NCBI GenBank assembly: GCA_021732995.1
Contig: JAKFWA010000099.1
Coordinates: 17,693 to 81,692 of the forward strand
Length of the DNA: 64,000 nt
Source: Planctomycetaceae bacterium
GTDB taxonomy: Bacteria; Planctomycetota; Planctomycetia; Planctomycetales; Planctomycetaceae
Direction: 5' to 3'
A program made the position numbers and the translations under genes. Position 1 is the stretch's first letter; each line of letters begins with the position of its first letter. Under the pieces are notes generated by a model. The model saw nothing but the letters and a program-made list of their open reading frames with translations. It was not told the origin of the DNA and did no database searches. Below, one piece after another: positions 26,165 to 28,159 of the stretch.

Positions 26165-28159
26165 ATGACAGCGTCCACTGCGAATACGAACTACACAGTC
26201 ATGGCGCGGCGATTTCGACCGCAGGCCTTCGGTGATGTCGTCGGTCAGGAGCATATTTCTCAAGCTCTGCGGAACGCGATCCGGGGGAACCGGGTTGCGC
26301 ATGCTTACCTCTTTACCGGTGCTCGCGGAGTGGGGAAGACGTCGTCGGCCCGTATTCTCGCGAAGGCTTTGAACTGCCCGAGCGCGGTTGATGGTGAACC
26401 CTGCAACGACTGCGAAATCTGTCGCGGGATCTCGGCAGGCAACGACATCGACGTGCTGGAAATCGACGGTGCGTCCAATCGCGGTATTGAAGACATCCGG
26501 CAGTTGCGGGCGAATGTGAACGTGAAGTCGATGCGGACGAAGTACAAGGTCTACATCATCGACGAAGTTCACATGCTGACGAAGGAAGCGTTCAACGCGC
26601 TCCTGAAGACGCTGGAAGAACCACCGCCGAACGTGAAATTCGTGTTCTGCACGACGGAACCGAACAAGGTGCCGGACACGATTCTCTCACGCTGCCAACG
26701 GTTCGATTTCGGGACGATCGCGACCAACAACATCAAGCTGCGGCTCACCCAGATTGCCGCGGCTGAAGGCGTTGAAGTCGATGACGGCGCGCTCGAATTG
26801 GTCGCCCGCAGAGCCGCCGGTTCGATGCGTGACAGTCAGTCAATTTTCGATCAATTGCTGGCGTTTGGTGAGGAACATGTCACCGCCGCTGATGTGCACC
26901 GACTGTTGGGGACGGCGAGTGACGATCGGCTGACGGCGATTGTCGATGCGCTCGTTCATCACAATCAGTCGCAGGCGCTGCAGTCGTTTCACGCGGCGCT
27001 GGATGGTGGCGTGCAACTGGGTGAGCTGACCGATCAACTGCTGTTCTACTTGCGGGACCTGATGGTCATCGCGGTCGGTGCCGGTTCGCTGGAACTGCTT
27101 TCCGTGGCCGAAACAACTCGCGCGACGTTGGCTCAACAGGCTCAACAGTGGGGGCTGCAGACCATTGTGTCGGCGATGCAGATCTTCGCGGACACCAAGG
27201 CCCGGATGTCACGCGTGACCTACGGCCGCGCGCTGGCGGAACTCGCGATTGTGCGAGTGGCTATGCTGGAAAACCTGGTCAATCTGGATGCCGTGATTGA
27301 TCAGCTTCGTACCGCCGAACCGATTTCGGCGCCGCCTGCCGCTACTCCGTCTTTGGTGGCAGAAAAAAAAAATGACCTAGCGCTGCCAATAGCGCCCGGG
27401 CCGACCCCTACGCCGTCGGTTGCTGTCGCGGTGGCAGAGGCAGAGGCTGAGCCTGAGGCAGACGAACGGTTTGAAGAGCCGGATGAGGTTGCCGATGCCG
27501 CGATGCCAGTCGACGAGCCAGAGGAAACGAGCGTTCTCGAAGAGTCCCAGCCTGTGGCTCCGTTGCCGAAATTGGTGATGCCGTCACCACCACCGGCGGC
27601 AGAGGAAACGCGGTTGTCCGAACCGCTTCCAGCAGCCCCAGAATCAGCAGTCCAAGACTCGCTGGCTGCGCCGGAAGCTGTCGGTTTGCCGCCGGATTCG
27701 GCTGCGGGTGGCCGCACAGCGGCAGATTTCCAACATCCAAATCCCATCGATTTTTGGTCACAAGTCGTTGCTGAGATTACTGATCTGCTGAAAAGCCATG
27801 CCAAATCGGCAACCCGCATTGCAATTATTGGACCAAATAAGCTGGAAGTTTCCTTTCCGCAGCGTTACCACTTCTCGAAGAAGTACTGTGAGAAGCCTGA
27901 CGTACTTCGGCGACTGGAAGAGATCGCTTCTCGGGTCGCGGGACAACCGCTGCGGATCGTGCTGACAGCCTACGAAGACGAGTCGGCGAACGCTGCTGCG
28001 GCAACACCCGACGCTCCCAAAGCGACAAAGGCCGGACGTCGAATTTACAAACCCGAAGAGGATCCATTTGTCAGCAACATCATGAACCTGTTTACGGCTC
28101 AGGTGGTGAAGGTGGAACCGGTGATCGGGGGCTCTGGCGAATCTGAGTCAGCAACCTGA
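26165..28159 (+). CDS. dnaX: DNA polymerase III subunit gamma/tau
   Basis: Clamp-loader ATPase of 664 residues. Walker A is at GARGVGKTS, the zinc site at CPSAVDGEPCNDCEIC, Walker B at YIIDEVHML and the SRC sensor at ILSRCQRFDF. Residues 1-370 are the conserved ATPase and lid domains. Residues 395-525 form a Pro/Glu/Ala-rich linker, and a conserved tau-like C-terminal domain follows (NPIDFWSQVVAEI onward). An A10 run at codons 400-403 marks the join between core and linker and probably allows a short gamma product (see separate entry). A second ATG at 26201 begins MARRFRPQAF, where similarity to the family starts; either could be used. ybaB and recR follow, a widely conserved arrangement. Confidence 0.95.
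   Translation: MTASTANTNYTVMARRFRPQAFGDVVGQEHISQALRNAIRGNRVAHAYLFTGARGVGKTSSARILAKALNCPSAVDGEPCNDCEICRGISAGNDIDVLEIDGASNRGIEDIRQLRANVNVKSMRTKYKVYIIDEVHMLTKEAFNALLKTLEEPPPNVKFVFCTTEPNKVPDTILSRCQRFDFGTIATNNIKLRLTQIAAAEGVEVDDGALELVARRAAGSMRDSQSIFDQLLAFGEEHVTAADVHRLLGTASDDRLTAIVDALVHHNQSQALQSFHAALDGGVQLGELTDQLLFYLRDLMVIAVGAGSLELLSVAETTRATLAQQAQQWGLQTIVSAMQIFADTKARMSRVTYGRALAELAIVRVAMLENLVNLDAVIDQLRTAEPISAPPAATPSLVAEKKNDLALPIAPGPTPTPSVAVAVAEAEAEPEADERFEEPDEVADAAMPVDEPEETSVLEESQPVAPLPKLVMPSPPPAAEETRLSEPLPAAPESAVQDSLAAPEAVGLPPDSAAGGRTAADFQHPNPIDFWSQVVAEITDLLKSHAKSATRIAIIGPNKLEVSFPQRYHFSKKYCEKPDVLRRLEEIASRVAGQPLRIVLTAYEDESANAAAATPDAPKATKAGRRIYKPEEDPFVSNIMNLFTAQVVKVEPVIGGSGESESAT
27363..27372 (+). promoter_or_regulatory. 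Probable slippage/frameshift site for gamma production in dnaX
   Basis: Ten consecutive A residues read as GAA AAA AAA AAT in frame. A -1 ribosomal shift, or transcripts with one extra A, give K-K-K then TGA at once (403 aa). Loss of one A gives ATG ACC TAG. Any out-of-frame slip therefore stops within a few codons, at the end of the conserved clamp-loader core. T. thermophilus dnaX uses an A9 run for transcriptional slippage, and E. coli dnaX uses A AAA AAG for -1 frameshifting. Confidence 0.75.
27380..27395 (+). promoter_or_regulatory. Hairpin downstream of the dnaX A-run
   Basis: GCGCT and AGCGC form a perfect 5-bp stem with a 6-base loop, seven bases after the last A of the run. This is the spacing at which a stimulatory RNA structure acts in -1 frameshifting. 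The stem is short, so the effect may be weak. Confidence 0.5.

Follow-up and report, generated by a model that had tools for sequence, protein, structure and literature searches.

The dnaX gene in the window, the 64,000-nucleotide stretch of a Planctomycetaceae genome analyzed here, contains a run of ten A's (A10, positions 27363-27372, plus strand) that is very probably a programmed transcriptional slippage site, at which the short DnaX subunit gamma would be made beside full-length tau. This assignment draws on the sequence of the site, on the rarity of such runs in the genome and on the conservation of the run in the class. According to the proposed mechanism, the nascent A-run would be re-aligned on the template T10 by RNA polymerase, giving dnaX messages that have gained or lost a few A's. 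Messages that keep the reading frame, with 10 A's or a number differing from 10 by a multiple of three, would yield tau, and all others would reach a stop within three codons and yield gamma. The predicted gamma retains the ATPase domains as well as domain III and is devoid of the linker and the tau tail. Slippage of RNA polymerase at the A10, accumulation of gamma and its work in the clamp loader are what we infer from sequence comparison.

The A-run in dnaX of the window

The list of open reading frames places dnaX at 26165-28159 (plus strand) as a single open frame of 664 codons (664 amino acids), and the gene was classed as a dnaX orthologue whose long product comes from one frame. Residues 10-365 match TIGR02397 with 445.8 bits against a cut-off of 250, and the best relatives in the PDB are the tau/gamma chains of E. 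coli. Pfam domains PF13177 (residues 27-184), PF22608 (190-236) and PF12169 (domain III, 239-380) make up the ATPase, lid and domain III part common to tau and the predicted gamma (residues 27-380, positions 26243-27304, plus strand). The tau tail, the C-terminal 165 residues (27662-28156, plus strand), is missing from the predicted gamma, and a profile of 65 tails from the class locates it in the shifted frame of split dnaX genes elsewhere in the phylum; it includes the sequence EEDPFVSNIMNLFTAQVVKVEP at 28055-28120.

Positions 27362-27380 read G AAAAAAAAAA TGACCTAG. As dnaX starts at 26165, the frame over the run is GAA AAA AAA AAT GAC from codon 400, and the A10 begins in this codon, spans codons 400-403 and lies 20 residues past domain III. 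The first-pass annotation had placed the run precisely at the join of core and linker; the run is indeed there and close to the end of the core, but with 20 residues between it and PF12169, "precisely" is slightly too strong. One additional A, or a -1 shift, leads to TGA at 27373-27375 (plus strand) and a product of 403 residues, while one A fewer leads to TAG at 27378-27380 (plus strand) and a product of 404 residues; two additional A's lead to this TAG as well. The 403-404 residues given by the annotation are thus correct. Seven bases past the run, a small GC stem-loop (GCGCT...AGCGC, 27380-27395, plus strand) can form. Its position was thus given correctly, whereas its stability was not clearly above that of shuffled sequences (z -1.4 for 30 nt and +0.6 for 60 nt).

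The genome of 9,392,773 bases (9.39 Mb) contains no other A10 or T10 (one match on the forward strand, none on the reverse strand). Runs of A9 or longer occur at five separate sites, including the A10 of dnaX. By eye, two of the A9 sites (L060, L064) resemble intrinsic terminators, one (L063) is located close to where a coding frame ends, and the remaining one joins the two halves of a second split gene described below.

Conservation in the class and the choice between mechanisms

A search of 59 genomes of relatives yielded a class dnaX locus in 58, the window included, and none in G011; together with eight loci from a draw across the phylum these form a class set of 66 loci, among which L058 and L059 are fragments and L017 is cut by a contig end. 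A run of at least nine A's is present in the dnaX ORF of 52 of the 66 loci, and in 51 of them it lies between 60 nt before and 200 nt behind the end of the core. The other 15 lack a run near the core end, although one of them (L006) has an A9 430 nt further on. None of the 66 loci has an A9 or longer in the core earlier than 60 nt before its end, and none of the ORFs contains T9, C9, G9 or longer runs (C8 or longer in six, G8 or longer in one). The 51 runs are either A9 (36 sites) or A10 (15 sites) and begin in codon phase 1, 2 or 0 at 32, 17 and 2 sites, respectively. The restriction to nine or ten A's combined with a varying codon phase indicates that the letters rather than the residues are conserved. 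The longest A-run per gene was 3-7 in 14 genes and 9-10 in 52 genes; the sole A8 was found far downstream in L075, which also has a longer run. In L071, L072, L073 and L075, the dnaX linker contains two runs of 9-10 A's separated by a few bases.

Chance arising from codon use was ruled out as the origin of the runs: synonymous shuffling with the protein kept predicts 5.05 class genes with A9 or longer and shuffling of the codon order behind the core predicts 0.87, compared to the 52 observed. In 15 sampled relatives, the number of A9 matches per genome ranged from 6 to 52, both strands together. The zero frame continues for at least 100 codons past the run in 50 of the 51 genes, the exception being the truncated L017. 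A ribosomal heptamer was considered as a replacement in the 15 loci without a run near the core end, and no general replacement was found. No heptamer is present from -60 to +260 nt in 13 of them; in L007 an in-frame A_AAA_AAA is followed five codons later by a -1 stop, and L016 has GGGAAAG with a stop 37 codons away. Gamma may therefore be dispensable in these 15 cases or be made in another way.

Stops behind the run provide a means to distinguish between mechanisms, since slippage adds or drops bases and needs stops in both shifted frames, whereas a ribosomal -1 shift needs stops in the -1 frame alone. Within five codons past the run, the -1 frame is closed at 94% and the +1 frame at 67% of the 51 class sites, compared to 18% each at control positions elsewhere in the same 51 genes, and both frames are closed at 65% against 2%. 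Median distances to the stop were one codon (-1) and four codons (+1), versus 20 and 21 in the controls. None of 5000 resamplings reached the observed -1 or +1 value, a significance that is overstated because related genes are not independent. At nine of the 51 sites, the stop in at least one shifted frame is more than eight codons away.

Stimulators of ribosomal frameshifting were assessed by folding the 50 nt downstream, with z scores relative to random windows, and by counting Shine-Dalgarno-like motifs upstream. The 51 class sites had no excess of structure (mean z -0.17 versus -0.04, p = 0.255), and none of them, the window included, had the motif that belongs to the E. coli type of site (control rate 0.07). 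Similarly, 32 A9 or longer sites from families f51 and f43 showed no excess (z -0.23 versus -0.26; the motif at 3 of the 32 sites, against a control rate of 0.06). Heptamer sites of family f8 and three kindred loci gave a pronounced signal in structure (z -1.64 versus -0.01, 31 sites, p = 1.6e-8) and motif (18 of 32 versus a rate of 0.11), indicating that the test detects ribosomal cassettes and that none was detected in the class of the window. The hairpin is accordingly not supported as a stimulator, in view of the absence of an excess in the class, in f51/f43 and in the second gene, and of the positive result for f8. The annotation had suggested ribosomal frameshifting as a possible addition to slippage. 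Considering the lack of structure excess and motif and the closure of both frames, a hairpin-aided ribosomal contribution at the dnaX gene of the window is not supported. Stops in both shifted frames together with the lack of a structure or motif excess point to slippage during transcription, as in T. thermophilus. Consistent with slippage, the split f51 gene L263 has an A12 and its tau tail in the +1 frame, and the downstream ORF of the second gene, in the -1 frame at 25 loci, occupies the +1 frame at one.

Since every A9 or A10 contains A_AAA_AAA in frame, some ribosomal shifting may occur. That gamma arises by -1 programmed ribosomal frameshifting on this heptamer, alone or together with slippage, would agree with the better closure of the -1 frame, with the ribosomal appearance of f8 in the same phylum and with the in-frame A7 and nearby -1 stop of the otherwise run-less L007. 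We nevertheless consider it unlikely, because the class sites show neither a structure excess nor the Shine-Dalgarno-like motif and the +1 stops are enriched as well. Moreover, an A7 would be enough for the ribosome, yet a single A7 and no A8 were found near the core end as opposed to 51 runs of A9 or A10. A motif scan that covered 12 genomes gave, in the genome of the window, two putative tRNA-Lys genes for each of the two anticodons, and PMC5009743 links the presence of both to the reliance of T. thermophilus on slippage.

Alternatively, the run could lack a role in expression: within the variable linker its Lys-Lys stretch would be neutral, any slippage would be tolerated noise, and gamma, if made at all, could be a proteolytic product. 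The linker is in fact variable, 15 of the 66 class loci do without a run near the core end, and cleavage produces gamma in Caulobacter according to PMC5009743. An excess of 52 genes over the 5.05 expected for a constant protein, the varying codon phase and the closure of both shifted frames make this explanation very improbable. Even less credible, to a degree that we give it hardly any weight, is a contingency locus at which changes of run length during replication switch tau on and off between cells. Long homopolymers can mutate, and replication slippage is described as hard to exclude in PMC1088944. However, the zero frame is open behind the run in all 51 class genes, in a comparison made between species, and an essential replication gene seems an unlikely switch.

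Other dnaX families and a second gene with an A9 junction

For the phylum draw, 148 genomes were searched, and the comparison took in dnaX from 113 of them (105 new and eight already in the set). Among 220 loci from the phylum, 77 are single-ORF genes with a run, 16 are split with a run, 34 are split with a heptamer, 11 are short without either, 81 are single-ORF genes without a run and one is cut. In family f51 (L251-L277), 26 of 27 loci bear the run (A9 in two, A10 in 23 and A12 in one), 15 being split at the run and 11 single, and family f43 (L278-L285) has it in six of eight loci. With the profile of 65 tails, the tau tail was located in the -1 frame of 13 of the 16 split f51 loci and in the +1 frame of one, L263, with two loci giving no hit. 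In f51, the roles of tau and gamma appear to occur both ways round, the putative slip product being either gamma or tau. An A7 was seen in L254 (f51) and L279 (f43), CCCAAAA in L285 (f43) and a split dnaX with an A-run in L124 (f10).

Family f8 (L159, L161, L162, L286-L315) differs in its site. In all 31 complete loci dnaX is split and has an in-frame AAAAAAA, GGGAAAA or CCCAAAA within 45 nt upstream of the zero-frame stop, compared to two of 156 single-ORF genes with a heptamer at the same position. The heptamer starts 13 nt before the end of the stop in 26 of 32 cases and 10 nt before it in four, and the tail profile has a hit in the -1 frame of 23 of the 29 complete loci tested and missed six. 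Three heptamers in a fixed phase point to the ribosome, and decoding in f8 looks like ribosomal frameshifting. A FastTree phylogeny requires 14 changes in presence of the run in the class and 10 changes of architecture within f51; these counts are rough because 78 of the 216 inner forks are weak.

Slippage as in T. thermophilus, which the first-pass annotation had proposed for planctomycetes together with a survey of the run across their dnaX genes, has sequence support in 51 of the 66 class loci. With 81 of 220 phylum loci being single-ORF genes without a run, f51 occurring both ways round and f8 appearing ribosomal, "planctomycetes" was too broad. Among 80 named loci, the run was present in eight of 12 from planctomycetes, some of which may duplicate sampled genomes (L172/G029, L182/G080) and with Schlesneria, Gemmata and Aporhodopirellula records among those bearing the run, and in three of 68 from outside the phylum, where L193, L210 and L247 are cut by a contig end. 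The three are records of an Ignavibacteria, a Bacteroidetes and a Verrucomicrobia.

Several short dnaX genes have other arrangements. In family f14 (L109, L132, L133, L166), no A-run is present and a C/G-rich end is followed by a long -1 frame, with tail profile hits in the -1 frame of L109, L133 and L166 and none in L132. L107 has the tau tail in the +1 frame and an ATG shortly past the zero-frame stop, and the tail may be a separately started ORF. An A11 was noted in dnaX of L096, from an AT-rich planctomycete (GC 0.33); with such a composition, chance may account for a long run.

To cover other genes, ORFs were compared around 63 sites of A9 or longer, four from the genome of the window and 59 from eight relatives (G001, G026, G028, G042, G045, G049, G050, G053). 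Aside from copies in G053 and a pair in G026 and G028, one family with an A9 junction recurred, in six genomes including that of the window. This second gene consists of two ORFs of approximately 500 codons in different frames that meet at an A9; in the window's own genome (L065, L378) it lies at G000:C98:22211-23355 on the minus strand, and its relatives are among L376-L405. ORF1 matches STN and ORF2 matches TPR, in both cases weakly and under the Pfam cut-off. Relatives occur in 56 of 59 genomes, and in 11 they form one frame of 1237-1621 codons. Both halves were present in 26 of the best 30 loci, all of family f1, and in all 26 the overlap of the ORFs contains an A-run (A9 in 24, A10 in one and A8 in one), with L405 as the one locus having ORF2 in the +1 frame. 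The first half was not shown in the other four, three of which have an A9 near the junction. No excess of structure or motif was detected at the second-gene junctions (z -0.28 versus -0.17, p = 0.254; motif in 3 of 29). Several loci have start codons for ORF2 near the junction, and separate initiation of ORF2 is therefore possible. We regard the second gene as a candidate slippage gene for a long fusion protein; if it slips, it would independently support slippage at A9 runs in these bacteria.

The copies in G053 (L363, L365, L369, L370 and L368, L372) are near-identical ORFs with an A9 at the same place and are probably insertion sequences. L323 (G026) and L334 (G028), the pair shared by two genomes, represent a gene of two ORFs joined at an A9; judged by eye, the first is presumably an ABC-type ATPase and the second acetyltransferase-like. 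Two long ORFs in shifted frames also meet at an A9 in L322 (G026), the second by eye resembling the ketoreductase of a large synthase.

Taken together, we lean towards the view that Planctomycetota use polymerase slippage on A9/A10 as a standing device, with a dnaX site that is widespread and was repeatedly gained and lost, roles of tau and gamma that were exchanged several times, one family that turned to the ribosome, and a second gene in which the same device makes a long fusion. A class-wide case next to families that seem to use reversed slippage or the ribosome makes the choice of mechanism by a lineage testable, and likewise the purpose of gamma. It also serves as a warning that split planctomycete dnaX genes, like the second gene, which is widespread too, may be mistaken for truncated or broken ones.

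Comparison with known systems

For decoding of a cellular gene by polymerase slippage, dnaX of T. thermophilus serves as the standard example. Transcriptional slippage there takes place on an A9 (Larsen et al. 2000, as cited in PMC1088944 and PMC5009743). The gene of the window shares with it a tau encoded by a single ORF, nine or ten A's on the coding strand behind the core and nearby stops in both shifted frames, and it differs in that slippage in the window is predicted from sequence and that most members of a class have kept the run. The run is also located at about 60% of the gene in the window, compared to seven-eighths in T. thermophilus (PMC1088944). The same source considers conserved run length among homologues as very likely purposeful.

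In the two-ORF type, tau results from the shift of frame; GeneTack found 17 such dnaX genes, with Chlorobi species among those named (PMC3711429). The split genes of f51, f10 and f8 have this arrangement, while the window gene is a single ORF that, instead of a zero-frame stop right after the site, stays open to 28159. Two planctomycete genomes were included in PMC3711429, and its dnaX section names no planctomycete. A search by title and opening text, with most subscription journals outside its range, found no paper on planctomycete dnaX recoding; PMC1088944, PMC5009743, PMC4066793 and PMC3711429 describe the cases of T. thermophilus and E. coli and the two-ORF genes.

In E. coli, dnaX is decoded by -1 ribosomal frameshifting on A_AAA_AAG with a Shine-Dalgarno sequence and a stem-loop as further elements (PMC5009743 and PMC3711429). 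The predicted gamma of the window likewise ends right after the shift site, and the class differs in showing no excess of either stimulator and in having A9 or A10 in place of the heptamer. The heptamer A_AAA_AAA inside the run of the window, with TGA next to it, is uninformative in this respect because any A9 contains it. By its ten A's behind the core and its TGA and TAG in the two non-zero frames, the site of the window corresponds in sequence to that of T. thermophilus, and by lacking the Shine-Dalgarno-like motif it departs from that of E. coli, so that the predicted mechanism is the one known from T. thermophilus.
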